Virus record (IMG/VR): IMGVR_UViG_3300037558_000962
Span: 1-28,560 of that record
Strand: one strand, 5' to 3'
Source: a virus
Length of the DNA stretch: 28,560 nucleotides
Made by a program: the position numbers and the translations under genes
Shown here: positions 2,261 through 21,255 of the stretch, piece by piece
How the letters are laid out: every line of letters starts with the position of its first letter
Position numbering within the stretch: position 1 is the first letter of the stretch
Notes under the pieces: model-generated
The model's database searches: none
The model's input: the letters and a program-made list of their open reading frames with translations, nothing else
What the model was told of the DNA's origin: nothing

Positions 2261-3625
2261 ATGAAACAATTGTATACACCCCAGCAAAGGGCACACGACT
2301 TCTTTGTAAACCGCCTCCTATCAGGGGGTAACACCCTCGACTCATCTCAGATGGGCACGGGTAAGACTGTAGTCGGGGCTCAGGTAGCCTCGTCAGTGAT
2401 CAAGCAATCACCCACCATCAATCGGGTAGCTGTGATCTGTCCCAAAGCCGTCATCCCCTCATGGTCCTCGGAGTTAAAGGAGTGTGGGCTGGAGCCTGTG
2501 TTCATCCACAACGTGGAAAAGCTTAGGACTGGGAAGACTGAGCACGTATGCCGCCTCGGTAAGAAGAACTTCGGATGGGATCTGTCGAAAGATACACTCG
2601 TTCTGGTCGATGAGATCCACAAATGCAAGGGGCCATGGTCCCTCAATGCAAACCTGCTGGTGGCTCTGGTCCGTCAGGGATTCCGGATCCATGGTATGTC
2701 AGGCACGCCTTGTGAGTCACCCATTGAGATGAGACCCCTCGGTTATATGCTGGACCTACACTCTAACGATCAGGCGAGGAACAATCTACGCTCTTACTTC
2801 GGCTGGCTTAAAAAGATGGGCTGCTACAAAGGACACTGGGGTGGTTGGGAGATTTCAGAACCACGTAAAGCTCAGAAGAAAATCCGCAAATCTATTTACG
2901 ACATCAGCACTAAGGGTCTGACCGTGTCAGATTTCCCTGATTCTTTTAGGGATAACCGTGTCATCGTGGATCCAATTGAGTTCAAAAACAACACCAAGAT
3001 AATTAAGAGTTACAAGAACATGAAGATATCGGAAGAGGATATGGTCGAGTATGTAGCAACAGGTAAGCTGCCTGACTTTGACGATGACGATGACACACCT
3101 ATCATCGTGAAGATTCTAAAAGCTAGGCAAGAGAGTGAGGCTTACAAAGTTGTGGACATTGCAGAGATGGCGCAAGATGCTGTGGCTGAAGGACATAGCG
3201 TAGTTGTGTTCCTGAATTTCACCGAGTCTTTGCGTGAAGTAGCAGCTCTTTTAGACTGTGAGTTTATCGATGGCTCTGTCCCAGCAGAGGAAAGGGAAGA
3301 GATCATTCAATCTTTCCAAGCTGATGAGACACATTGCATTGTAGTGAATGCCGCCACAGGGGGCACAGGTATATCCCTCCACGACATCAAAGGAGACAGG
3401 CCCCGATTGTCCCTCATCAGCCCGAGCTTCAACGCCAAGGAGTTCGCCCAAGTTCTGGGCCGGATCCACCGTAACGGGGCTAAGTCAGACGCCCTTCAAA
3501 AGGTTCTACTGTCACACAATTCTATCGAAGAGTATGTCATGAAAGCTATAGCTAAAAAGCTAGAGGCAATGGACACGATTCACCACTCTAACATTTGCAC
3601 TTTAACAACTACCTCTTACTCATGA
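2261..3625 (+). CDS. SNF2/DEAD-like superfamily 2 helicase
   Basis: A 454-residue superfamily 2 helicase or DNA translocase. Seen in the sequence: a PQQRAHDFF entry motif near residue 7; Walker A MGTGKT at 31-36; motif Ia region VICPKAVIPSW at 58-69; DEIH (motif II) at 117-120; SGT (motif III) at 147-149; an acidic insert (DFDDDDDTP) before the second RecA-like domain; a motif V-like NAATGGTGISL; and QVLGRIHR (motif VI with arginine finger) at 397-404. Motifs and length fit the compact phage SNF2-like helicases, which remodel or unwind DNA using ATP in replication or recombination. It abuts the previous gene and overlaps the next by ATGA. No nuclease or DNA-binding domain is fused. The exact role is not determinable. 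Confidence 0.9.
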   Translation: MKQLYTPQQRAHDFFVNRLLSGGNTLDSSQMGTGKTVVGAQVASSVIKQSPTINRVAVICPKAVIPSWSSELKECGLEPVFIHNVEKLRTGKTEHVCRLGKKNFGWDLSKDTLVLVDEIHKCKGPWSLNANLLVALVRQGFRIHGMSGTPCESPIEMRPLGYMLDLHSNDQARNNLRSYFGWLKKMGCYKGHWGGWEISEPRKAQKKIRKSIYDISTKGLTVSDFPDSFRDNRVIVDPIEFKNNTKIIKSYKNMKISEEDMVEYVATGKLPDFDDDDDTPIIVKILKARQESEAYKVVDIAEMAQDAVAEGHSVVVFLNFTESLREVAALLDCEFIDGSVPAEEREEIIQSFQADETHCIVVNAATGGTGISLHDIKGDRPRLSLISPSFNAKEFAQVLGRIHRNGAKSDALQKVLLSHNSIEEYVMKAIAKKLEAMDTIHHSNICTLTTTSYS

Positions 3626-4722: not shown

Positions 4723-5029
4723 AGAACTATTGGCGTTACATACTGCTACCAGCGAGCGTTGTCGTAGCATTATGGAGTCAAAGAACAAGGACTACACGGG
4801 AGGCTCAGAAGCGTGCGACCCGTTCGCCAACTTCCGTGCGTCCGAAACCGTAGGCATTCACCCTATCAAAGGGATCCTGCTTCGGATGCAGGATAAGATT
4901 CAGCGGATCAATTCGTTTGCGAACGACGGTAAGCTATCAGTCAAAGAAGAATCAGTCAACGATGCCTGCGAGGACATCGTTAACTATGCGATTCTTATTA
5001 AGGCTATTGCTTCCGAGGATCAGGGTTAG
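4712..5029 (+). CDS. DUF1599 / Nmad1-like protein (MazG-like fold)
   Basis: A 105-residue protein with the signature order of the DUF1599 family (also named nucleotide modification associated domain 1): KNKDYTGG at 24-31, DPFANF at 36-41, ILLRMQDKIQRI at about 55-66 and ESVNDACEDIVNYAIL at about 80-95. The family belongs to the helical NTP pyrophosphatase-like (MazG/dUTPase-type) world and is common in phages. A role in nucleotide-pool control or DNA-base modification has been proposed for it. It covers the full family length. It ends the plus-strand block; its TAG overlaps the stop of the giant minus-strand gene. Confidence 0.75.
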   Translation: MTHEELLALHTATSERCRSIMESKNKDYTGGSEACDPFANFRASETVGIHPIKGILLRMQDKIQRINSFANDGKLSVKEESVNDACEDIVNYAILIKAIASEDQG

Positions 5030-8000
5030 TCCCCCGTCGGAATGTAAAGATCATACTTGTCTCGGGCATTGAGGTAGTCTGAGTATCTTAGCTGGAGCTT
5101 GCTATCAGTAATCATTCTCCGCTTCATGGGATCGGACATGACGGGTCTCATGATTAACTCTAATCGATTAAGTCGGAGCCTTTCTTTACTTACCCCAAAA
5201 GATTTAGCATCTTTCTCTATTGAAAATAGACTCTTGCCAAGTTTTTCTGCACCGATCACAGCTCTAGAGAAGTCATTAGCTTGGTAGATTCTTACCTTAG
5301 CGAACTTGTCATACTCATCCTTCACATCACTCGGGCTCATGGTTTCTTTTTCAAGAGACATCCTGTTGTTCCGGTAATCCTCCATATGGTTTCGGAGATA
5401 CCTCCGGAATGTCTTATCCACGTCAAGCTTATATGGTTTAACAGGCAGAACCTCTTTCCAAATTAGACCCAGTGGGCTGGTGAACCACGCCTCAGATTTG
5501 TCTGCGAAGACAGCATCAAAAGAATCTTTAGCTGCCCTAAATGTTCTCGGTTCGTAGGCCCTTTTCCAGACCTGCTCCAGTAATGTGAAGGCACCCCAGT
5601 CTTCACCCTCTTGAACAAGCTTTCGACCATACTCATCCTCATTAAACATCACATCAGTGAGGGCACCAAACAGGATTTGCTCGGATGCAAATGGTTTAAG
5701 TAAACCATCTACCCATAGAGTTTTTGAAACGGCACCACCAATGTCTCCTTTGAGTAGGGCTTCCAGTCCTCTTACGAATGGTTCTTGATAAGCCGCGAAA
5801 GGGTTTAAGAAAGTTAAGTCCGTCCCATATATTTCTCCGTCTTCTGTTTTATAAAAACATATACCCGCAGAGCGCATCCACTTTGGCAGACCTCCTCGGA
5901 TCATATCCATCTCATCCTCGTCATCGAATCCAAACAGTAGTAGTTGACTACCCTTTGTGAGGGCTAACGATGCAGCCGTAGTTGTTAACGCTCCGAGTGC
6001 TCTTCGTTTACCCCTCTTCCTGATGACTGGGTTTTTACTAGCCATCTCTTTTTTAGCTTGGAAGATCCCGTTGATAAATACTCGGGGAACATCCGCAGCA
6101 AATCGAATATATGGGGCAATCACTACACCCATAGAACTGCGCGAGAACGTCTTAATTATTGGTAAGGCTCGGCTATATGATTGGGTTGTGTCCTTAACAA
6201 TCTCAGCAGCCATCTGTTTAAGTCCTGATGATGGCGTATTGTTTGGACCTGAAATCATTTTGCTAAGTGGGTCACTTGGGGGTGCCTGTTTAGCTGCTTC
6301 AACCAGTGTATCTAATTCAAAGTTGTATAGACCTATCTTAAAGAAACCATCAGCCGCTGAAGCAAGCCGACCACCCAACTTCATCAAGGCATCTGATGCA
6401 CCTTTGGCTCGCTTGGCTCCAGTCTTAGTAAGTTCCCAACCGTCGAGCCCATACTTAGCTAACAGATCAGCAGCTCCCTCAGGAATAGATCCCTTAGATT
6501 TCGTATTAATCTGGTTAGCCATTTGTTGATGGAGCTCACCAGCTTTCTTTAGATCTGCTTCAAGATCAGCATAAGTAGTTCGGCCAGCTAAAAGGTTTTG
6601 GATCTGCGTTACTTCCAACTCATCCCCGAAAACATCCATGGTTTTTAGTTCAGTCAGGTGCCAGTTTAAATCAGCCAAAGAACCTCGTGCCGCTTGAACC
6701 ATTAGAGATTGGTTGCTGTTTATGTCAGCCTCACCCATAACAGAACCTATCGCAGCAAGTCCACCAGCAGCTTCCTCAAACAGAAGTTTTCCACCACCCC
6801 AGTAGCCCTGCATTGGTCCGAAATACATGGCATTACCTACCATGTTTCGGAAATAAAATCCTACAGATCCTAATGTCTTTAGAGCGAGAGAGTATCCCGT
6901 TGCCTTTCTGATAAAAGAACCTATACGAGTTTCAAACTCAACACGCTCGTTGTTAATGTCACGCATTTCTTTCGGGTCACTAAACAGATCTTCAAATTGT
7001 TCTGCAATATCTCCCTTGAAATACATCCCCTTGATAGGCGCGAGATCTTCCTCGCCCGTGTCAGCTTTTAGCTGAGACCAATCTTCATACTTTTCTGGAT
7101 CTTTATCATACTGTTCTTTGGTAACTAACCAAGGATCGGCAGATTCTAATCCAAGCTTTTTGATCTTGTTGAAGAACGACTGGTTGGCCAGCATACTAGC
7201 CGTATGGAGAATAGAGTGCCCAAGATTTGTAGAGCCTGCTTCTTCTCCGAACTCTCCGAGTAATTCTCTGACGGGATCGGGAATGTTCTTCTTCTCGTTG
7301 ATAGTCTGGGCTATCTTATTTAAAGCTTTGTCGTTGAACGAATCTTGAAGGACGATGTCTTGAGTAGATGAGCCTTGCTTAATCCTAAGTTGTCGGCGGG
7401 CTTCACCATGCTGGTATCCTTTGATAAATGATCGCATCATTTTACGACCAACGGAAGCGTGATGCTCAGGGTTATTAACCAGATCCTCTTCGACCATCTG
7501 TCGGGCCTCATTGTATCCGACACCATGCTTCTGCATTAAGGCATCAACATCTTGTAGAGCTTTCTGTTTCGCAAAATACAACACAGCTTTGTCCCGTGTC
7601 TCTTCATATACATCGTCCTCTAAAACTTTAGCCGCGAAGTCATTGTCCTCAAACATCCTATACCTTCTTGTGATATAGATTCCACGATCAAAGTTGAACG
7701 CCAAGTTAAGATCTGCTACATCCATGGATCCTCCAAAAACATCGACACCTTTCTTCGATAGCTGATCCTGAAGTTGACGCATCTCTACTATCAAGGCATA
7801 CATCTTTGGTGAAACCGTAAGGAGATTTTTCAATGCGTTGTTCCGCACGTTAAGTTCAGCAGCTCTGTTCTTATTTCTGAACATCATGATCTTACTCGCC
7901 TTAGCTTTCGCGGCTGCATCAATAGCAGCTTTGCGATCTGCTTGATCCATTATCTTCATCGCTTTCGCAAGGTCTGAAGCATGATCAGAATCTACTTCTT

Positions 8001-11000
8001 CCTCTTGAGCGAATGTTAATTGAGAGCCATTGGTTGAACCAGATGCATGGGCAATCAACGTAGGAGGTATAGGCTGACCTAACCTTTTTTCTTCCTGCAC
8101 CAAGAGACGGTCATGCTTCTTTTGATATATTTCTACAATAGACTTAGTCTCTCTGATGAATGCATTCGTTTGATTAAAGAAACGAACAACTCTTTTGTCT
8201 GCTCTCCGTTGGAATGTTCTGATCCAGAACCTTTTGAATTTAGTTCCAAAGGTTCCGTCCTTAGCTTTGATGTCATACTCATGTAGCTCCATCAAAGGAA
8301 CGTCGAGCAGCTCAAGCCACTGACCGATCTCAACCTCCTGCATATCCACCTCGTTGAGGAAGTCGGGGATCTTAGCATCAGCCCCGAACCTAGACTCAAG
8401 GTCTAGATTACGCCTTCTTTCTCTAGACGATCTACTATCCTCGCCAACGCTTCCTCGTAAATCTCTTCTTCGGATGTTTGCTGTGGATACAGTGAAGGAT
8501 CCTGCATTGCTTCCGGTGATTGATCGGTATACGTCATTGGCTGCGGTTGCGTAGTCGGGGGCTTCTTCATCTTTTCCGGAACCGAATTCCGTGTGGACTG
8601 CTTTTTCATAATACCATAATATTGCTTGTGCTTCTGCTGGAATCATTTTGATTCCATTGTTTTGTTCTAATTTGTCCATTGCATTATACATGGACAACCT
8701 CATGAATCTTCTGTGACTACCATTTTGTGGGGCTTCAACAAGCTCATGCCCATCAACAATCTTTTCTAATTGATTAGTTGCTTTCCTTAGTTCGTTATCA
8801 AGAGGAGAAATCTTTTCCATCTTCTCCCCCTTTTTAAGGGTTACCCACGACTTAGTCTTCTCATCATAATACTTTGATCTATTGGCTGGAGAAGTGTAAT
8901 AATTTTTCAAAGCCATTACGACTTCAACAGAACGCTTTCGTTTCCTACCTAACTTGGCTAACTTAAACAACTCTCCTTTAGGATCTTTAGTTAAGTATGC
9001 GGCAACGGCATCGTCAAACCGCTTGTTCGTTTTTCTTTGCTGGGCAGGGGTAGCCACTTTCATTTGTGTCCCCGCTGTTCTACCGAAGGTTCTCATAAAC
9101 CAGAGATCCATGGTTATAGAATTAAATTTACCGTTAAGGTTGTGGTAGAATGATCCTAATTTAGGGCCGAAGATAAGGGCGAAGGGGACGGTTTCATCTA
9201 TGAGTTCTCCTTTGAGGAGGTCAGACGCATCTTGTTTAGTAAAATCGAGCTCAGAAACTAAAGCTTCTTTCAACTCCTTAACCGTTCCAGATCTAGCAAG
9301 AAATTTTTGCATCTGTTCCCAAGTATACTTGGAAACCAAACCATCCATTAGCTTGAGTTGATTTGTAATTGCAGATGTTCTAGTGCCTCTTACCCAGTTG
9401 TTTCCAGTGTCCGGATTCTTAGTTTCAGCAGGGGCAAATTTTCCAGTCTTCTTCCAGTTCTGATAGATAGCCCACGAGTCCTCAGTTTGTGCGGCAACTT
9501 TGTTACCGTTAGATGTTACCGCTAATAAAGTTTTGAAGACAAAGTTATCTTCGGGTTTTTTAATATCTGGGTCTAGCTCCTCAAAGATATCCACAGACAT
9601 CTGAACTCTTTCCTCATACCAAGAAACGAAATCAGGATACTCATTCAATGCGCGTTGGAGAACTCCATAAAGTCTCCCACCCATCCTATCAATCTTATCC
9701 TGATTCTTTGGATCCCAATGAATCCGATCTTTCGGATCCATCATCTCAAAGAATTTCATTCCAATCATATGTGGCCGACTACCTTTCGGACCTGCATCAA
9801 TGTTCTTTGTTCCATGGAGCATGGCATCATCGATAAGATCTTGCCCTTTATGAACTGGGGCGAGGCGAACATCAGCTCCGAACCTAGACTCTAGGTCTAT
9901 AATGCTATCTTTACTGGAATCAAACCTCTTTGAGAGGGGGATGATCTCTCCTTTTTTATCGCGGGTAATCGGCTCCCGTGATTTGATTTGGTTTCGGTTA
10001 GGGACAATAAACTCAGACCCCATCTCACCTGATGATGTTCGGCCACCTATACCTCTTACGGCATCGTATTTAATACGACCATCACGCATCAATATGTATA
10101 GGGCCTTCTTAAAAAAGTCACTACCGGCTGCCATGTCTTTTGGATCGATTTTATCCGTGTCGGAGCGTTCGCTTCCTGTTTTTTTCCTGAAATACGCGGG
10201 CGAGAACCATATAGTTGCATCAACCATCTCAGAGTTTCTCGCTTTAGCGAAACCTGCGCGAGGGGACTTGAAGTATTCATAATTTTCTGGCTTTGCGTCA
10301 CGGATTCCTGATTCCTTGTATGCGTTGTTAACGGTATGCTGGTATTTGATCTCTGCTTCAACCAGTTTCTGTTCCTCTGGAGTTAACTCCATCCCCCCCT
10401 CTGATGGAGAGGCCATGAGAAATGGGGTGAACGCTTTTCCTGCGACCAACTCTGATCTCTGTTCTAGGTCTTCTGGCTTTACATCATTATTCTGTGCATC
10501 AACTAAATTTATTTTTTTACTTACCGACCAAGAATCTCTTGTTGGGACACCAGTTCCCTCGGCCATGAAGTAGCCCTGAGCAAAATTCAATTCCCCAGCA
10601 GAAGGTTGCAGTGCTCTCCCGTCTTTGTAATAACCAATCCTAGCTCCTTTATACATATACCCCTGAGACTCAGCAGCGGCATCAACCATTTTCTGAACGG
10701 TCTCCATGTCACCCGCTTCTATTGCTGCCATGTATTGCAAATCAACATCAGCTCCGAACCTAGACTCAAGGTCCAAGGTAGCCTCGTCATCAGAAGAATC
10801 GTCAGGAGCCAGCATCCGGTAGCCAACAGCTTGCTTAACTAGAGCGTCTACAATCTGTTCTCCGTTACGTGTATTGTAAGTTACGCTACGTGGAGCTGGA
10901 CGGTAGGCTAACTCCATAGCACGTAGCTCGCGAACAACATTGTTAACGGCGTCACGCATTTCAGGAGATAAATCTTTACGAGTTCTGTGGTAAGTGAGCT

Positions 11001-14000
11001 TACTGAGAAACGCTTTAAGGTATTGGATAAAGCTTGCAAGCAAGCTAGGGTTAGTCTGCAAGAAAGCTATCTGCTCGTTGGTGGTCATCCCACGCATGGC
11101 CATACTGGCATGAGCTGCAAAGGCTTCGTTGGCTAACCTGTATTTCTCAACAGAAGATACTTCAGCATCTTCACTCCGCATACGAGCAATAGCTTCTGCT
11201 TGCTCACTCTCCGGATAGTATTCTTTAATGATCCGAATAAAGTCAGTGTCATCCATAGACTGAATAACAGCAAGGACTTGCTCGTCAGTTAAGATTTGGT
11301 TCGCGGCAGCGTGCCCCATCTCTTCGTTTAACAGAGCACCTAACAAATGTGTTTGTCTGTCTGGATCAATCTCGCTATCAGAAACTAACTGCGATAGTTT
11401 AACGGCAGCTCGTTTAGGGTTGAAGACTAGCACACCAGTCTCACCATCTATCTTGACAACAACAGATGATGTCTCATCTGTAGACATAACAATTTCAGGG
11501 GGGAGATAATCCCGAACCCACTCTGTAAACTGTTCAGCTTTTGCTTCTAACCTAGCTTCAGCAAGGATACTAGATTTACCACCATAAGCGTCAGCAATTT
11601 TGGCACGTTCTGTCTGTGTTTGAAACAGTCTTGTTGCAACGTGATTCGTGATCCCTGCTTGTGTTAGGGCACCACCAACCCTGACTGATGACATAGCATT
11701 GGCGATACTTTTCTGTAATGCAGTAGGTGGCAGTTTAGCTCGGCCAAAGGTTACAATTTTAGCAACGACTCGTAGAATTTTTTCTAGTAATGATGGCCCA
11801 AGAAACCCACGGAACTCTTGGCTGGTCAAGGTGTAGGCAATAAACTCTTCTACATTAGCTGTTCCGTTTAAGAATACTTCGTCTTTTAACTCTTCAGCTT
11901 TTACTCTGGCTTCGGCTCTGTGTGCTTCAAGTTCCGCGAAGCGTGTGTTGTGCTCAGGAGTTCTCAACTCTACAGGCATCGCCACAAAGTCTACACTAAA
12001 CGCGTGTGCATATTCATGAAGCAGGGTTCCGGCTATACCACTCTCACCTGTGGCACCCCGTGGATTAATTGTGATTATAGGCTGTCCAGTCTCGGCGTCA
12101 TATTCTCCAGAGAATCCTTGATCAGATGATTCTATCTTGAAGACGATGGTCTTAACAAACTCTGGGTTATCTAAAATAACTTTGGCCAGTGGTCTTAAAA
12201 ACTCAGGCTTACCATTTTCTTTTATCAACCGAATAGCTTCCAAGACAGACTCGACATCACCATCAACCAAACCTAGATCCTCAATTTCTTGTAGGTTTGT
12301 AGCTTCGATAACTGCATCAGACTCTTCAGTAGTAATGGAGTTTTGTCTAAAGGTAGTTATATGATGTGACACTAACTGGAAGAATTCGTCTACGCTACTA
12401 TCACTGAAGTCTTGTGCGACATCCCCATATGCCTTGACCATCTCCTCTTTTATGAAGGCAAGAAGATCTGCATCTGTAGATACGTCAGGGTGGAGTGATG
12501 GTGAAGACAAGCCAATTGCTTGGAGAGCAACAATCATATTGTATGCTTCCGGATTAGTTTCTGAGATCTTATTTACATAGGTCAGAAACTCTAGCGTAGA
12601 GTCGCTCGCTACATTGTTACCTTTAACTAGGTGCTGTAGTAGTAAGTCAACAAGAGCGGACGCGCTTTTGTTTTGTACTGACGAGTTCTCACCTAAAACT
12701 TTTTCATCTATGAACGCGATTAGATCTCCTCTAAGCTCCTGATCTTTTTCAAGAGCTGTAGCAATTGTAGCTAGGTTAGATCGTAAATATCTACCAGTTG
12801 CCGTTTTCGGAAGAACTGGAAGTGGGGTAGGTGTTTCAGCTAATCCATTCCCTGCTGACGCATTCTTGTCAGCATCAAAATTAGGGTTTTTATCTATTCT
12901 CTCCCCCTGTTTGACGAGGTCACCAAGGTTAAGAACCTGTTGTTCTTTGCGAGACCGAGCCATGTCTTGGAAGTATCCCAAAGAAAAGTCGCGGAGCTTT
13001 GCCATATTAAATGGTGCCTGTGTCGCGTTATCGTTGGAAGGATTTTGCTGTGCAGTCTCGTAGACTTTCTTCTTTATTGAAAGACCGAGAGACATAGCAG
13101 CCGCAGTGTAATACCTACTCCTGCTCTGAGCACTGCCAACCATTATCCGCTTCTTATCAGGTCCAGTAGGTGGATCGCCTGCTTCGATAAATTGTTTTAG
13201 AGTTTTAAAATCTTCCGCTAAAGCAAGCAACTCCCGTAGAGTTATGTTTGGATCCGACCCAGTTCCCTCAACAGATGGGAAAGGATTCTTAACTTTGATA
13301 TCCAGCCTATCTTCTGGAGTTGTTTCTTGAAGCTGCTCAACATCTTGGAGTAGTCCTTTAACTCTTGAATAATTAAAATTATTCTTACGAATATTTCTGA
13401 AGTCTGCCCATGCCGAAACTAGACCACCTCTAACTGGAACTAGGATGTCAACCACATACGCTTGGTTAGATCCTTCTCGTTTTTCTATTACAAAAGAAGG
13501 GTTAACTTCAGAGCCTGCTATGGTCGAAGCTTCATATACTTCTTCTGAAACAGGAATAAGGATGTGACTCTTTAAGAAAGTCATCATCTGTTGTGGGTCA
13601 TTGTTAAATATCCCGTTACCTTCTTCATCTAAGTAAACGTATTTCTGATCAGCCGAAAATAAATCAGGTAACTTGTCCTTAGATGTTACATTCTTTTTGA
13701 AGACAGGATACTTCTCCTCAATTAAGTTACTCAATCTCTTAGATAAAGCCCTGAAGTTATCATCCCCTGTTTTGTCTAGCGTTAGTCCAAGAGCTTGTAA
13801 GTGTTCCTGAATTATAGAGACAGGGAAACCTCCGTTAACTAAATCTTCTAGCTGTGCTTCGTCATGCTCTGTGATATCCTCGTCAGCAATATCGTCTTCA
13901 ACTTTTAACGACCTAGCTGCTTTACTAAGAGCGGCATACCTACGGGGGTCGATTAATTCGCCGGAGTTTAAACCATCTTCAATTGCTTGCTCTGCTTTCT

Positions 14001-17000
14001 TCCTAGCTTCGCTATCTTTGGGTAGTTGAGCAGCTTGTTCTACCGCTTGTTCCCATTTACCCCTAGCAAGTTTAAGCGACAACATAGCGTTGTTATACTT
14101 TTGCTCTGGTGTTTTATATTGGTGCTGTCCCACCGGAGCTGAGTTTGCTTCAGCATCTCCTGTCTCAGGATCTACTCCACCCTGCTCATTAACCGCTCTC
14201 CTAGACTCTGAGGTCCAGCGGCTATTTCCAATCATACTCTTCTGCTTCTCTTCAGGAGACTCTTGATTCTCAAAAGTTTTATCTGTGTCAGGGTTAGCTG
14301 AAATCTTTTCTTTTAGTTTACTAACCTCCCGTTCAACATCTTTTTTAGCCTGCTCTAGTGAGATGATACTCTCTTCTTCGATATACTTGTTTACTTCTGC
14401 TGCACTCTTTGTGTCCCAAGTTCCGGCGGCACGTTCTTTATCAATCGCCGCATTTAGTATAATGTTAGCGCGATCAGTAAGATCAGAACTTAGTTGCGGT
14501 TTCTTATTCTTTGCATAACCAGCTAGGCTTATCACAAATTCAGGCTGCGGTCCTTCTTCAGGATCCACAGCGGGTGCTTCGCTTTCACTAGGCTCGGGTG
14601 CTGGGGTTTCTCCCTGCTTCTTAGCTTCAGCTTTCTGTTTAGCTTCAGCGTTTAACTTCTTTAAAACTTTTTGTGCGGCCTCCGCAGTTTGTGGAGCCAG
14701 TGTTTTTAGCTGAGCTCTTTGTTGGGCAAGTTCTGGGTTTGCTTTCGTAGCCTCCGCGACTCGTTCGTCAAAGTCAGCCATCACAGAACTCTCTAATGAA
14801 GCTAGTCCACGCCTGTCTGTAACAGCATTGCCTAGAACAGGCACCTTTCTAACAAGAGCACCACCTACTGTAGCAGTCCCACCAAGAACAGCTCCTAGTT
14901 TAAAGGCGTGCCAAGCTTGACCAAGCGTTTCACTCAGAGATGATTCTTTATTTTGCCAAGCATCTTCAACCATTTGATTTATGATTGTATCAAGTGCTTC
15001 TTCAGTGCCTTCACCAACCACGGCTCCTGCAAATGCTAGGCCCTTAGAGCTTCCATATTTTTTAAAGGTTTTTGTAATTGATTGGGCCATCAAACTTTTC
15101 AAACCTTCTACAGAAGAAACAGATCCACTAAGTCTGTCGGTAACAGTCTTGAGTTGTTTGAAGCTCATACCTTTAAGGAAGGCACTTTCAACACCACCGA
15201 GCTTCCCACCAAACATTTGCCCAAAGCTGGCAGTTATAAGACCCGTTACGGTTCCACCCATGAGAGCAGTTCCGTATGCAGTTGAATGAGCTTCTTGTTT
15301 TACTCTAGCTTCATTCCAATCGTCAGCCCACTCACCGTCTTTAAAATACTTGGCTGTAAGCTCCTTCTCTAAGGAAGAGAAAACAGAACCATACGTAGCC
15401 CCGCCGGATCTAACTGCTGCTGGAATAAACGTGCCCACTGCTTTGACACCTACATGCTTTGCTAGTTGGGAATTGTAGCTCTTGATAGCTCCTATTAATT
15501 CACGCGGCTTTAACCCTTTTAAGACACCAGCTTTTTTAATTCTTTTAGCTACCGCCGCCAGAGTTTCTTCCTTTAGCTCCCCTGTTGCTGCGTTTCGATA
15601 GACCCGTTGGCTAAGACTATATTTACCCAGACCTCCAGTTAAAGTATTCTTCATCGTATTACCGATGAGTGTCCGTGCCACAACAGCTCTTCCTAAGATA
15701 CCCCTAGCAGCAGCACCGCCAGCAGATTTAGCTGCGAAATACCCACCAGATACTGAAAGGCTACCGCCGAACGTAACTCCGGCTAACCCTACAGCACCCG
15801 CCGTCACGACCATGTCTGCTACCATAGGAGCAAGAGCTTCTGAGAGGTCTTGCCCGAAGCCCATCTCCACACCGTAGATGTTTGCTAATTCTCTATTAAG
15901 ATTAATTTGTTTAGCATTCTCAACGATCCCATCGCGACCCCAGTCAGTGTCAAGAAGAGCACCAGCACCGTAGAATAAACCCGTGACACTATGCCACGCG
16001 CTCATACCAAACCCACGCCACTTAACACTTACGTCATTATCACGAATAAAATTTTCTAGGATCTCATGGTTATTTAAACCCTGCTGCTTACCCTCTGCTT
16101 TAGCTGATTGCCAGTCATCACCCATTGTTTCTGCAAGGACTTCATCAGTGCTTGAGAAATTGCTTTCTAGATTTGCTACACGCTTAACATCTTCAACCTC
16201 AATGTCTCGATCAGATAGACCAAATTCTGACAAGGCTGTTCTAAATTCAACGGGTTTAACATTAAGTGCATTATGGACTAATACCCCATAATATTTTGTC
16301 CTGCGAATATTGCTTGCTAGGTCATCTTCGTCAAACTCTCGGCCATCATAACCAAAAGCAGAGTCTTGAATACCGTCAGCATTAATCTTCTCAATGTAAC
16401 TTTCAACGGCCTGTTCAAATACAGGCCCAGATCTTTGTGTTATCTTTGAAAGCTGATCAAGGACTTGCTTTTTAACCACCTCATTTTTTTCTAATGCAAG
16501 GTCTTGCTGACTCTCAAATAGTTTTTGAGCCCTTAGAAGTTCTTCTTCATCTTCGTCAAACGTAAGAAAGTTAAATCCAATACGTGCATTACGTAGGGCA
16601 TCTCCTAACAGATCCTGTCCGCTATGCACAGTGTTAGCCCAAAAACCATATTCATCCTTCTTTCTTTTCGCTAGAGCTAGGCCCGTCATCTTCCCCCTCA
16701 AGTCTAGGAAATCTCTACCGTCACCTTCGTTAATGATGGCATTAATTTCTTGTAGTGCCGCATTACCTTCAGCTAATTCATGCTTAGGAATATCCCCATA
16801 CACACCACCCGCAGGCTCTTGTAATTTTTTTAACGCAAGAAAGTCCGATGCTTTTACCCCATATTTTTTGGAATTAGCTACAATGTTTTCAAAAGTATCG
16901 CCATCCTTTAAACGACCACCTACGAAAATTCTACTCCCATCTTCATCGAAATAAACACCAGCATCAATTTGGCCTGTCCCGTATAAGTTCGTGACAAAGT

Positions 17001-17439
17001 TTTTTCTAGCCTTCTTTACTTCCTTAGTAATATCATCAAGGTCATCAACGCTAAAACCTTCTGGTATTTGGTTCTCATAAACAGCGTTGTTAAAATCATT
17101 AATGTCAGCGAATCTTTCCTCGCTCATCTCCATCGCCTCTGGATCAAAGTGGGTGCTTAGAAATTTAAGATCATCCCCTAGAGAATTTTTGTTTTGTATC
17201 CCAACTAGTTTTTTTTGAATCTCTTCAGCATTATCTTGATTAAGAATTCCCTTGCCTACTAAAACAGAAGCTAAAGTGGACTGGATCCCTTGTTCAACTT
17301 CTTCATCATACTTCCCTATGGCTGTAAATTCTTCTCGTTGATTGTCAAAATAATTAGACCAAGATTCTACTGGGTCGTTATATTTATTATCGGGGTTTGC
17401 GGACCATACAGAGTATGGCGTTAGTTCTATTTCGTTCAT
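5026..17439 (-). CDS. Giant multidomain polyvalent-type phage protein, 4137 aa
   Basis: A single uninterrupted frame of 4137 codons, start MNEIELTPYS (A at -3). Order of segments: 1-480 charged helical; about 480-870 Gly/Ala-rich with several membrane-prone stretches; about 890-1060 charged and Pro/Glu-rich linker; HEYAH zincin motif at 1808-1812 with EE at 1864-1865; second zincin-like segment with EEMGH at 2039-2043; DLESRFGAD at 2223, 2515 and 3013; between the first two, a polyvalent ADP-ribosyltransferase-type module (AGD at 2242-2244, NQIKS at 2483-2487); between the last two, a GPKLGSF...MDLWF motif resembling HhH-GPD glycosylases (D2778); then a 1100-residue C-terminal region with hydrophobic patches, possibly LPD38-like. 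Such proteins are thought to be packaged and ejected with phage DNA. It follows the coiled-coil gene at 17488-18612. Transcription ends head-on against the left block, overlapping stops. Confidence 0.85.
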   Translation of the reverse strand: MNEIELTPYSVWSANPDNKYNDPVESWSNYFDNQREEFTAIGKYDEEVEQGIQSTLASVLVGKGILNQDNAEEIQKKLVGIQNKNSLGDDLKFLSTHFDPEAMEMSEERFADINDFNNAVYENQIPEGFSVDDLDDITKEVKKARKNFVTNLYGTGQIDAGVYFDEDGSRIFVGGRLKDGDTFENIVANSKKYGVKASDFLALKKLQEPAGGVYGDIPKHELAEGNAALQEINAIINEGDGRDFLDLRGKMTGLALAKRKKDEYGFWANTVHSGQDLLGDALRNARIGFNFLTFDEDEEELLRAQKLFESQQDLALEKNEVVKKQVLDQLSKITQRSGPVFEQAVESYIEKINADGIQDSAFGYDGREFDEDDLASNIRRTKYYGVLVHNALNVKPVEFRTALSEFGLSDRDIEVEDVKRVANLESNFSSTDEVLAETMGDDWQSAKAEGKQQGLNNHEILENFIRDNDVSVKWRGFGMSAWHSVTGLFYGAGALLDTDWGRDGIVENAKQINLNRELANIYGVEMGFGQDLSEALAPMVADMVVTAGAVGLAGVTFGGSLSVSGGYFAAKSAGGAAARGILGRAVVARTLIGNTMKNTLTGGLGKYSLSQRVYRNAATGELKEETLAAVAKRIKKAGVLKGLKPRELIGAIKSYNSQLAKHVGVKAVGTFIPAAVRSGGATYGSVFSSLEKELTAKYFKDGEWADDWNEARVKQEAHSTAYGTALMGGTVTGLITASFGQMFGGKLGGVESAFLKGMSFKQLKTVTDRLSGSVSSVEGLKSLMAQSITKTFKKYGSSKGLAFAGAVVGEGTEEALDTIINQMVEDAWQNKESSLSETLGQAWHAFKLGAVLGGTATVGGALVRKVPVLGNAVTDRRGLASLESSVMADFDERVAEATKANPELAQQRAQLKTLAPQTAEAAQKVLKKLNAEAKQKAEAKKQGETPAPEPSESEAPAVDPEEGPQPEFVISLAGYAKNKKPQLSSDLTDRANIILNAAIDKERAAGTWDTKSAAEVNKYIEEESIISLEQAKKDVEREVSKLKEKISANPDTDKTFENQESPEEKQKSMIGNSRWTSESRRAVNEQGGVDPETGDAEANSAPVGQHQYKTPEQKYNNAMLSLKLARGKWEQAVEQAAQLPKDSEARKKAEQAIEDGLNSGELIDPRRYAALSKAARSLKVEDDIADEDITEHDEAQLEDLVNGGFPVSIIQEHLQALGLTLDKTGDDNFRALSKRLSNLIEEKYPVFKKNVTSKDKLPDLFSADQKYVYLDEEGNGIFNNDPQQMMTFLKSHILIPVSEEVYEASTIAGSEVNPSFVIEKREGSNQAYVVDILVPVRGGLVSAWADFRNIRKNNFNYSRVKGLLQDVEQLQETTPEDRLDIKVKNPFPSVEGTGSDPNITLRELLALAEDFKTLKQFIEAGDPPTGPDKKRIMVGSAQSRSRYYTAAAMSLGLSIKKKVYETAQQNPSNDNATQAPFNMAKLRDFSLGYFQDMARSRKEQQVLNLGDLVKQGERIDKNPNFDADKNASAGNGLAETPTPLPVLPKTATGRYLRSNLATIATALEKDQELRGDLIAFIDEKVLGENSSVQNKSASALVDLLLQHLVKGNNVASDSTLEFLTYVNKISETNPEAYNMIVALQAIGLSSPSLHPDVSTDADLLAFIKEEMVKAYGDVAQDFSDSSVDEFFQLVSHHITTFRQNSITTEESDAVIEATNLQEIEDLGLVDGDVESVLEAIRLIKENGKPEFLRPLAKVILDNPEFVKTIVFKIESSDQGFSGEYDAETGQPIITINPRGATGESGIAGTLLHEYAHAFSVDFVAMPVELRTPEHNTRFAELEAHRAEARVKAEELKDEVFLNGTANVEEFIAYTLTSQEFRGFLGPSLLEKILRVVAKIVTFGRAKLPPTALQKSIANAMSSVRVGGALTQAGITNHVATRLFQTQTERAKIADAYGGKSSILAEARLEAKAEQFTEWVRDYLPPEIVMSTDETSSVVVKIDGETGVLVFNPKRAAVKLSQLVSDSEIDPDRQTHLLGALLNEEMGHAAANQILTDEQVLAVIQSMDDTDFIRIIKEYYPESEQAEAIARMRSEDAEVSSVEKYRLANEAFAAHASMAMRGMTTNEQIAFLQTNPSLLASFIQYLKAFLSKLTYHRTRKDLSPEMRDAVNNVVRELRAMELAYRPAPRSVTYNTRNGEQIVDALVKQAVGYRMLAPDDSSDDEATLDLESRFGADVDLQYMAAIEAGDMETVQKMVDAAAESQGYMYKGARIGYYKDGRALQPSAGELNFAQGYFMAEGTGVPTRDSWSVSKKINLVDAQNNDVKPEDLEQRSELVAGKAFTPFLMASPSEGGMELTPEEQKLVEAEIKYQHTVNNAYKESGIRDAKPENYEYFKSPRAGFAKARNSEMVDATIWFSPAYFRKKTGSERSDTDKIDPKDMAAGSDFFKKALYILMRDGRIKYDAVRGIGGRTSSGEMGSEFIVPNRNQIKSREPITRDKKGEIIPLSKRFDSSKDSIIDLESRFGADVRLAPVHKGQDLIDDAMLHGTKNIDAGPKGSRPHMIGMKFFEMMDPKDRIHWDPKNQDKIDRMGGRLYGVLQRALNEYPDFVSWYEERVQMSVDIFEELDPDIKKPEDNFVFKTLLAVTSNGNKVAAQTEDSWAIYQNWKKTGKFAPAETKNPDTGNNWVRGTRTSAITNQLKLMDGLVSKYTWEQMQKFLARSGTVKELKEALVSELDFTKQDASDLLKGELIDETVPFALIFGPKLGSFYHNLNGKFNSITMDLWFMRTFGRTAGTQMKVATPAQQRKTNKRFDDAVAAYLTKDPKGELFKLAKLGRKRKRSVEVVMALKNYYTSPANRSKYYDEKTKSWVTLKKGEKMEKISPLDNELRKATNQLEKIVDGHELVEAPQNGSHRRFMRLSMYNAMDKLEQNNGIKMIPAEAQAILWYYEKAVHTEFGSGKDEEAPDYATAANDVYRSITGSNAGSFTVSTANIRRRDLRGSVGEDSRSSRERRRNLDLESRFGADAKIPDFLNEVDMQEVEIGQWLELLDVPLMELHEYDIKAKDGTFGTKFKRFWIRTFQRRADKRVVRFFNQTNAFIRETKSIVEIYQKKHDRLLVQEEKRLGQPIPPTLIAHASGSTNGSQLTFAQEEEVDSDHASDLAKAMKIMDQADRKAAIDAAAKAKASKIMMFRNKNRAAELNVRNNALKNLLTVSPKMYALIVEMRQLQDQLSKKGVDVFGGSMDVADLNLAFNFDRGIYITRRYRMFEDNDFAAKVLEDDVYEETRDKAVLYFAKQKALQDVDALMQKHGVGYNEARQMVEEDLVNNPEHHASVGRKMMRSFIKGYQHGEARRQLRIKQGSSTQDIVLQDSFNDKALNKIAQTINEKKNIPDPVRELLGEFGEEAGSTNLGHSILHTASMLANQSFFNKIKKLGLESADPWLVTKEQYDKDPEKYEDWSQLKADTGEEDLAPIKGMYFKGDIAEQFEDLFSDPKEMRDINNERVEFETRIGSFIRKATGYSLALKTLGSVGFYFRNMVGNAMYFGPMQGYWGGGKLLFEEAAGGLAAIGSVMGEADINSNQSLMVQAARGSLADLNWHLTELKTMDVFGDELEVTQIQNLLAGRTTYADLEADLKKAGELHQQMANQINTKSKGSIPEGAADLLAKYGLDGWELTKTGAKRAKGASDALMKLGGRLASAADGFFKIGLYNFELDTLVEAAKQAPPSDPLSKMISGPNNTPSSGLKQMAAEIVKDTTQSYSRALPIIKTFSRSSMGVVIAPYIRFAADVPRVFINGIFQAKKEMASKNPVIRKRGKRRALGALTTTAASLALTKGSQLLLFGFDDEDEMDMIRGGLPKWMRSAGICFYKTEDGEIYGTDLTFLNPFAAYQEPFVRGLEALLKGDIGGAVSKTLWVDGLLKPFASEQILFGALTDVMFNEDEYGRKLVQEGEDWGAFTLLEQVWKRAYEPRTFRAAKDSFDAVFADKSEAWFTSPLGLIWKEVLPVKPYKLDVDKTFRRYLRNHMEDYRNNRMSLEKETMSPSDVKDEYDKFAKVRIYQANDFSRAVIGAEKLGKSLFSIEKDAKSFGVSKERLRLNRLELIMRPVMSDPMKRRMITDSKLQLRYSDYLNARDKYDLYIPTGD
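8377..8406 (-). repeat. DLESRFGAD linker repeat, copy 3 (residues 3013-3021)
   Basis: Third copy of the 27-base sequence encoding DLESRFGAD, at the border between the glycosylase-like module and the long C-terminal region. It differs from copies 1 and 2 at few bases. In the +1 phase this copy carries a TAG (8403-8405) that ends a protein-like frame. Confidence 0.9.
8403..8609 (-). CDS. Possible out-of-phase 68-aa ORF inside the giant gene
   Basis: In the +1 phase of the giant gene, an ATG frame of 68 codons runs from 8609 to a TAG at 8405-8403, the edge of linker repeat copy 3. Its product looks protein-like: Lys-rich N-terminus, Pro/Gln/Thr-rich middle (KKPPTTQPQP), then an amphipathic acidic helix (EEEIYEEALARIVDRLEKEG). 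The giant frame over the same bases is Ser/Arg-rich and looks less natural from about residue 2976 to 3011. It may be a nested gene, a frameshift product, the fossil end of a gene fused into the giant, or chance. There is no Shine-Dalgarno sequence. Confidence 0.25.
   Translation of the reverse strand: MKKQSTRNSVPEKMKKPPTTQPQPMTYTDQSPEAMQDPSLYPQQTSEEEIYEEALARIVDRLEKEGVI
9871..9899 (-). repeat. DLESRFGAD linker repeat, copy 2 (residues 2515-2523)
   Basis: Second copy, between the ADP-ribosyltransferase-type module and the glycosylase-like module. At DNA level this copy contains a perfect inverted repeat, ACCTAGA-C-TCTAGGT (plus strand 9882-9896). Confidence 0.9.
10747..10775 (-). repeat. DLESRFGAD linker repeat, copy 1 (residues 2223-2231)
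   Basis: First copy, behind the zincin-like segments and an acidic Asp/Ser-rich stretch (DDSSDDEAT), and directly before the ADP-ribosyltransferase-type module. All 27 bases match copy 3 except one. Confidence 0.9.
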
Positions 17440-19427: not shown

Positions 19428-21215
19428 TCAATCGAGTAGCGTAGTCTCGGAATTGTTTAGAGCTCCTTGTAAAGATTTAATTGTAGTTCTTTTTGGAAGA
19501 AACCCATGCTCTGATTTTTCTGGGGGATCCACGGCCACTAAACCCAACCGTTGGCGGGCACAATCCAAGGCTAGAAACGCTGCATCTGCAAGGTCAGGGC
19601 TCCTACCGAACCTTGCTTTGAACTCTGGTTTAGATTCGATCTTCATACGGAGAGTCCCGCTTTTAACCATATCATAATTCCTAGCAGTCATTTCTTGAGC
19701 CAACTCAGAATCAATCCCAAATATTTGCTTTGTCCGCATCAATTCTTTTCCGACAAACCACAACTCTGACACACGGTTGACATACAACTCTGTACCTATT
19801 TTAGAACTGTTCGCACTAACGCGTTTATCACTAGCTTTTCCACCAAAAGAAATACGCATAAATTTGTTTGACCACTCACCTGCCAGCACATCACAGAATG
19901 GAGCACCCGCACCCGTGGCATCAACACTTAGATTCTCTGGTAGCACCCCGTGCTTCTTACATTCTTTCTGGACCTGCTCAACGATTTGGTAGGTTCGTGG
20001 AACAGCCTTATTTGTGGCATCGTCATTTAAATGAATGATTTTTCCGAACTCTATAACATACTGACCAGTAGTGTCATACCCACATCTCGCTAACGCCAAG
20101 CAAGTGCGATCACCCCCATTGGTGAAGCTCGGGTCGAGGCCCGCTAACATTACCGGATTTCCCTGCCAGTTTACTTTTCCCAAAGAACCAGAAGACGTGA
20201 GTTCGTTCTCCGAATAAATGCCCGTGGCCTCATCACTGTCAAAGAACACCGCTCGGACCATTCGCATATACCCCCTACTCTCAACACCCAACAATGCTTT
20301 GTCTTCGTCAAGTTTTTCTTGGGTCGGGAGCCATGGATAGATCACTTCTCCGGCTAAAATATTGGGAGACCGTTCACCATCTAAGCGGATATATTTTCCA
20401 TTCCATTTCGTATCCCACTCATCTTCGGTATTAGCATCAATAGAATCCCAATTATTTTTAGGTGTAGCCCATTCGCCAAAAGCATCAAATCGGCTGTTTG
20501 GGTTACTCATCCCAACCATTTGGAAATACGGGTTTTTTGATAAGTTACTGAGACCCGCGTTTAAGATGGCCGATGAGAGCTCCGAGAGCTCGTCCGCTAA
20601 AAGTAGCACCCTGCGTTGTTTTATTCCAATGAATTTGCCGATTGCTTCTTTTGTTTTAGACTTCTCCGCAGCGATCAAAGATAACCCTGCTCGTTCGATC
20701 AGTGTTCCCTTCTCATTGATGTAGGAGGCATTGCCTATTGAATCCCGAATCTTGATTGGTGCTCCGTCAATCACGGATAGCAAAGACATGACTGAACCCC
20801 AAATCCTCTTTCGTGCCTCCCGCAACGTGGTTGATGTCATGAGAACCAGTGTGTCCGCAGGCTGGCTCAACCAGTTAATAATCCCCCATGCAGCCATTGT
20901 GTGAGATTTACCAGAAGACGCGGATCCACCTACAGCCAGATATCTATTTTCTATGGCTTCACGAATCATATACGTGGCCCATGGGTGGCGAATCATTAAA
21001 GGCTCCGGCAAATCTTCGTGGTTCCACAGTTCATCACAACACCTCCAGAAATAATATTCTTTAGCTGCTGCAGATTCATGGTTTGCAAAACCAAATAGTA
21101 AGGCAGTTATAGTATTAGTCGGGGGAATTTGAAAACCACCCACGTCCATCTTCTTTGTTTTAGGATCCACTCTAGGCTCCAGTAACTGCTTGCGCCTTTG
21201 ATCGTTTAAAGCCAT
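19428..21215 (-). CDS. terL: Terminase large subunit
   Basis: A 595-residue phage DNA-packaging motor with both expected domains. ATPase: Walker A GGSASSGKS at 96-104, Walker B LLLADE at 204-209 (D208, E209), and a motif III-like VGMSNPNSR at about 234-242. RNase H-like nuclease: D361 (AGLDPS), D432 (SVDATG), and D541 and D544 (SPDLADAA). It powers genome packaging into the prohead and cuts the concatemer. The frame is open 30 bases further upstream, but I start at the ATG at 21215 (MALNDQRRKQ), which leaves 19 bases to the divergent gene; the longer form would overlap it. It heads the minus-strand block. No portal gene follows, which is unusual. Confidence 0.93.
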   Translation of the reverse strand: MALNDQRRKQLLEPRVDPKTKKMDVGGFQIPPTNTITALLFGFANHESAAAKEYYFWRCCDELWNHEDLPEPLMIRHPWATYMIREAIENRYLAVGGSASSGKSHTMAAWGIINWLSQPADTLVLMTSTTLREARKRIWGSVMSLLSVIDGAPIKIRDSIGNASYINEKGTLIERAGLSLIAAEKSKTKEAIGKFIGIKQRRVLLLADELSELSSAILNAGLSNLSKNPYFQMVGMSNPNSRFDAFGEWATPKNNWDSIDANTEDEWDTKWNGKYIRLDGERSPNILAGEVIYPWLPTQEKLDEDKALLGVESRGYMRMVRAVFFDSDEATGIYSENELTSSGSLGKVNWQGNPVMLAGLDPSFTNGGDRTCLALARCGYDTTGQYVIEFGKIIHLNDDATNKAVPRTYQIVEQVQKECKKHGVLPENLSVDATGAGAPFCDVLAGEWSNKFMRISFGGKASDKRVSANSSKIGTELYVNRVSELWFVGKELMRTKQIFGIDSELAQEMTARNYDMVKSGTLRMKIESKPEFKARFGRSPDLADAAFLALDCARQRLGLVAVDPPEKSEHGFLPKRTTIKSLQGALNNSETTLLD

Positions 21216-21218
21216 AAT
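21190..21218 (+). promoter_or_regulatory. Possible rightward promoter
   Basis: TTGCGC and CATAAT with a 17-base spacer, placing a start near 21225, ten bases before the ATG at 21235. The -10 matches 5 of 6 consensus bases, the -35 only 3. The assignment assumes a sigma-70-like host enzyme. Confidence 0.25.
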
Positions 21219-21226
21219 TCTTGGAC

Positions 21227-21255
21227 ACAATAGGATGAGTTTCAATTCAAATCAA
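21227..21255 (-). promoter_or_regulatory. Possible leftward promoter for the terminase operon
   Basis: On the minus strand TTGATT and TATTGT are separated by 17 bases (4 of 6 matches each), reading into the terminase start at 21215. It lies within the first codons of the divergent gene, because the gap between the two starts is only 19 bases. Confidence 0.2.

Follow-up and report, generated by a model that had tools for sequence, protein, structure and literature searches.

A nonapeptide repeated at module borders of a giant phage protein as a candidate recognition peptide

The stretch of DNA analyzed here, referred to as the window, covers 28,560 nucleotides (positions 1 to 28,560) of the IMG/VR virus record IMGVR_UViG_3300037558_000962. 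It contains a giant open reading frame (5026..17439, minus strand) that encodes a polyvalent-type protein of 4137 residues, located on the same strand as, and downstream of, the gene for the terminase large subunit (19428..21245, minus strand). The terminase served as the query defining the phage family, a marine one, and recovered 80 relatives at 66–100% identity; orthologues of the giant protein were present in 22 related records. The giant follows the terminase in the window and sits among virion genes in DC33-like phages; this position is what bears on possible packaging in the head and injection. Along the minus strand, the protein comprises a fixed N part (residues 1 to ~2215, 10795..17439; 24–36% identity to family orthologues), cargo module 1 (residues 2232–2514, 9898..10746), cargo module 2 (residues 2524–3012, 8404..9870), and a fixed C-terminal block (residues 3013–4137, 5029..8403) with up to 49% identity to orthologues. 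A zincin motif, HEYAH, was found in the N part at residue 1808 (12004..12018, minus strand). HExxH was retained at the same place in 20 of the 23 family giants, including those with an empty cargo slot, which supports the zincin label given to this part in an earlier note on this DNA. The MPTase-PolyVal profile PF18818 matched nothing, not even the controls, so its negative carries no information; the window protein was also without a Pfam match. A degenerate second zincin-like motif, LLNEEMGHAA, was seen at 11311-11325 (minus strand), with the first His changed to Glu. Its counterpart is NEEIGH in two relatives (G017 and G018) and HELGH in G014.

The nonapeptide DLESRFGAD was observed in exactly three copies, all within the giant ORF and on the minus strand. 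Copy 1 (residue 2223, 10747..10773) lies between the N part and the ART-type module, copy 2 (residue 2515, 9871..9897) between cargo modules 1 and 2, and copy 3 (residue 3013, 8377..8403) opens the C block as its conserved beginning. The earlier note had these residues and the spacings of 292 and 498 right, and its span of 8377-10775 begins correctly but ends two nucleotides too high, as copy 1 ends at 10773. It had also judged the motif unlikely by chance, and we agree: dinucleotide shuffles of the window never yielded its DNA, and a scan of the ORF for repeated 5-mer words found no comparable series besides DLESRFGAD. Among viral contigs, no other phage giant has the exact peptide, while variants occur in relatives. 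One hit in another phage, where a small DUF1320-like head protein carries DLESRFGADEL N-terminally (L006:1522-1548), was judged a coincidence. The DNA of the three copies is identical at 25–26 of 27 nucleotides, and the flanking sequences do not match. Codons were identical in 23 of 27 comparisons, against 9.9 expected (P ~1e-5, codon-usage simulation). Given this near-identity, the window copies are recent DNA duplicates in this genome. The DNA of copy 2 also forms a perfect 15-nt palindrome, ACCTAGAGTCTAGGT (ACCTAGA-G-TCTAGGT), which has one mismatch in copies 1 and 3.

To locate the module borders, the giant was compared by BLAST with 138 phage contigs selected by the head motif of module 1. 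Matches to other phages' giants began at residues 2228–2233 and ended at 2513–2515. The window giant aligned with its orthologues to about 2205–2238 and, in the nearer relatives, resumed from 3000–3016, corresponding to copies 1 and 3. The ends of the matches and the breaks in the orthologue alignments coincide with the copies, so the borders are genuine. Module 2 is mobile and was matched at ~2577–2974 in other giants, including those of two spring phages and of Limnohabitans phage DC33, for which no exact repeated word was found. The ORF is thus a single phage-encoded multidomain protein whose modules are separately homologous to different proteins. Pfam and PHROGs annotation run directly on the giant gave no usable match. 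Module 1 is homologous to an ART-PolyVal-associated module found in many phage giants, some with PF18760 matches, while its own Pfam search gave no convincing match; the "ART-type" label therefore stands through its homologues and the ART-PolyVal Pfam hit in relatives, and not through a hit of its own. The "glycosylase-like" label for the other module is unsupported, because neither Pfam nor comparison with PDB folds gave a match (fold searches of both structure models, no PDB match at E <= 0.001). In the AlphaFold model, copies 2 and 3 lie in segments with pLDDT < 50 flanking a folded, mainly helical module (predicted helical fold ~2559–2977). Copy 1 forms the N-cap where the first helix of module 1 starts, so there is no plain flexible linker there.

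The family comparison drew on the complete giants of 22 relatives. They share the N part with the zincin motif and the C-terminal block, and the cargo slot between these ranges from 17 to about 1250 residues: 17–36 in five relatives (G040, G026, G021, G030, and G031), about 210–270 in three (G017, G018, and G025), and 667–1247 in others. The C block of the relatives opens with DLESQFGSD, DLESQFGAD, ESQFGQD, or SQFSKD, including in those with an empty slot. Since the word is carried at the start of the C block even with nothing in the slot, copy 3 is ancestral, and the word is more than a leftover of module insertion. Copies 1 and 2 were probably added later at the cargo borders. Variants of the word were found at slot borders in several relatives: LESRFGA twice in G019 (LESRFGAG/LESRFGAD), LETR/LETQ three times in G028 (LETRIGS/LETRFGAG/LETQFGAS), LQSRxGA three times in G023 (LQSRWGAD/LQSRFGAD/LQSRYGAG), LQSRxG three times in G022 (LQSRLGS/LQSRQGAD/LQSRYGAN), and two copies each in G027 (LQSRVGSD/LQSRYGAN) and G020 (DVESTFGAD/DLESQFGVD). 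Some slot borders are bare, with no word at the N-side slot junction in G017, G018, G019, G020, G024, and G025. One module of G022, 54% identical to window module 2, lies between LQSRQGAD and LQSRYGAN, whereas the window has DLESRFGAD there; the cargo is the same and the local word differs. At the word residues shared with relatives, codons were identical in 15 of 59 comparisons, against 18.4 expected. With the relatives' copies written in unrelated codons, it is the peptide that is conserved, and not the DNA. This was seen in the relatives and in other lineages, and not within the window alone, where the copies are DNA duplicates.

The border-word pattern is general among phage giants, with other lineages repeating words of their own. 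NYSI was found at borders three to five times in one lineage of giants (records with several words include L038, L041, L050, L066, and L015), and other phage lineages have, among others, an RFDD-like word seven times, [RK][FY]S[VIL] five to seven times, and [RK][FY]S[DN]R four to five times. One homologous border carries RYQPREV, FEQA, NYSI, or DLESRFGAD depending on the lineage. The words of the other lineages were chosen by eye, so set-wide tests carry more weight. Recurrence of 4-mers (47 of 69 vs 33.2 expected) proved too noisy, and we therefore adopted 5-mers, with zones set by the heads and tails of ART modules and ART targets excluded. A border 5-mer recurred elsewhere in the giant in 32 of 80 giants (9.3 expected) and in 14 of 39 giants of an independent set of bacterial-genome loci (4.5 expected). 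Away from ART borders, 23 of 36 word copies were near the ends of inter-lineage homology, against 10.7 expected. Taking all short multi-copy words together, 185 codons were identical vs 189 expected, with serine-box switches included. Meanwhile, a few long words are recent DNA copies, including those of the window, G014 (10/10 codons), L044 (8/8), and, alike, L145. In the bacterial-genome locus L224, a stretch starting DIRFSIGHAGVIDGLV occurs twice, ~250 residues apart and once right after an ART tail, another recent word duplication. The words were not found in the other clearly real genes of 16 records read whole; RYSI was present in two ORFs of 579–594 residues among these records. No repeated word was seen in the archaeal-virus giant of vir555, and targeted searches of open-licence papers found no description of border words.

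Based on these sequence comparisons, we propose that DLESRFGAD is the border word of its lineage, a recognition peptide marking the edges of the cargo slot that is read and cut by a protease; we give this reading about an even chance. The giant would consist of a fixed N part with the zincin motif, a slot with zero to several exchangeable modules, and a C block opening with the word. With each gain of modules, most of the new borders would come to bear a copy of the word, and the copies would be alike within a lineage and different between lineages. One protease would then read the word and cut the giant between modules, such that effectors packaged as one chain would be freed as separate proteins. 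The view of the word as a repeated processing site is partly supported: it is non-random, marks the borders of modules, and is preserved at the peptide level, which is how such a site would be expected to look, and the same candidate recognition peptide is repeated at successive junctions, as in a processed polyprotein. That the peptide stays alike at successive borders within a lineage, differs between lineages, and persists despite codon drift is best explained by a single reader of all borders. For that role a protease is the most economical choice, since the modules on either side of the borders are effector-type and polyvalent proteins have been predicted to be processed by embedded zincins. 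We infer packaging, ejection with the DNA, a single recognizing factor, and cutting, as well as which protease is involved, perhaps the zincin of the N part in this giant.

The earlier note had also suggested cleavage by the zincin of the protein itself or by a host protease; the former is not supported as a general rule. No HExxH was found in the full NYSI-lineage giants G001, G002, G006, and G016, though the words are present; therefore, a zincin acting in cis is not the universal protease, and the reader in that lineage must be something else. Likewise, Iyer et al. 2017 describe the virion RNA polymerase of N4, which is a polyvalent protein and has an MPTase domain, as packaged unprocessed; the same paper predicts zincin processing of polyvalent proteins and cites cleavage of P1 DdrB (PMC5512222). 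The words differ too much between lineages for any single protease specificity to be recognized. A prohead protease was considered and set aside, as the S78 family was absent from the 16 records and the words were absent from their other clearly real genes.

An unlikely alternative is that the word is an intragenic recombination linker, a short DNA homology serving in-frame insertion, deletion, or exchange of modules. The near-identical DNA and codons of the window copies would fit this, as would the recent DNA copying in G014, L044, and L145, and the palindrome in copy 2; relatives also differ precisely by the modules between words, and module insertion leaves direct repeats. However, the peptide is kept with codons at chance level in family relatives and most other lineages, which indicates that DNA homology is not the thing being maintained, and the word is found even where the slot is empty. 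Exchange at the DNA level does occur at the words, as seen in the window and in a few further giants, yet it leaves the conservation unexplained. Slightly less likely is a docking or packaging motif, with one handle per module that a scaffold, portal, chaperone, or ejection factor would bind without cutting. Peptide-level conservation, the single copy per border, lineage specificity, the missing universal protease, and the helical, not open, copy 1 would all suit such a handle, but separation accounts more naturally for the strict border position, borders inside the cargo slot included, and the words are absent from the other clearly real genes of the 16 records. Finally, we consider it very unlikely that the word is a functionless trace of modules duplicated or moved with a bit of linker, since, despite the recent DNA copies in the window and some words being merely the tail of duplicated ART modules, codons have diverged around an identical peptide in many giants and words recur at non-ART borders once ART heads and tails are excluded.

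Under the protease reading, phage giants may be true injected polyproteins in which the lineage word co-evolves with its reader and a module becomes usable once it bears the local word, a broader claim that we hold at somewhat short of even odds. In the polyproteins of eukaryotic RNA viruses, a short recognition peptide is repeated at junctions, is lineage-specific, and differs between families, and cleavage by a viral protease within the chain is proven. The phage giants share the repeated junction peptide, whereas their cargo set is variable and their cutting is a prediction. Substrates of prohead proteases of the T4, phiKZ, and SPN3US type are reported to be head-packaged proteins that a phage-encoded enzyme cleaves at a short consensus; the giants differ in that the 16 tested records lack an S78 protease and the words are absent from other clearly real genes. 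For lambdoid phages, short conserved boundary, or linker, sequences have been proposed between functional modules, where they could guide exchange. In contrast, the words described here lie inside one gene, in frame, and are mostly conserved as peptide. Like the window giant, the polyvalent proteins of Iyer et al. 2017 are giant multidomain phage proteins that combine a motif of zincin type with modules of ART type and others, for which processing by an embedded metallopeptidase and the polyprotein analogy were already proposed; the repeated border peptide, the cargo slot, and empty-slot relatives are not described in the passages searched, nor do the terms "linker" or "interdomain" appear in the paper's text (PMC5512222).

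Whether and how injected giants are cut has been an open question since polyvalent proteins were described, and the words predict exact sites. They also allow giants to be parsed into modules without domain knowledge, and co-variation with the words offers a way of reaching whatever reads or cuts them. The comparison separates two often-confused mechanisms, DNA-homology exchange and peptide selection, both of which were seen, though the lineages and time scales differ. The repeated tags suggest that giants are marked for piecewise cutting or recognition and make that idea testable; if true, one injected chain would become several effectors.

Among individual records, G010 (L173-L174) has a giant ORF of 6099 residues that fills almost half of its 37.5-kb record and contains seven copies of an LFSSP-type border word. 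Sulfitobacter phage phiGT1, a cultured phage, has an ART-like gene outside any giant. The record of Limnohabitans phage DC33 (L008, PQ492659.1) names Inoviridae for a 39-kb genome whose nearest relatives are podovirus-like, which is probably a metadata error.
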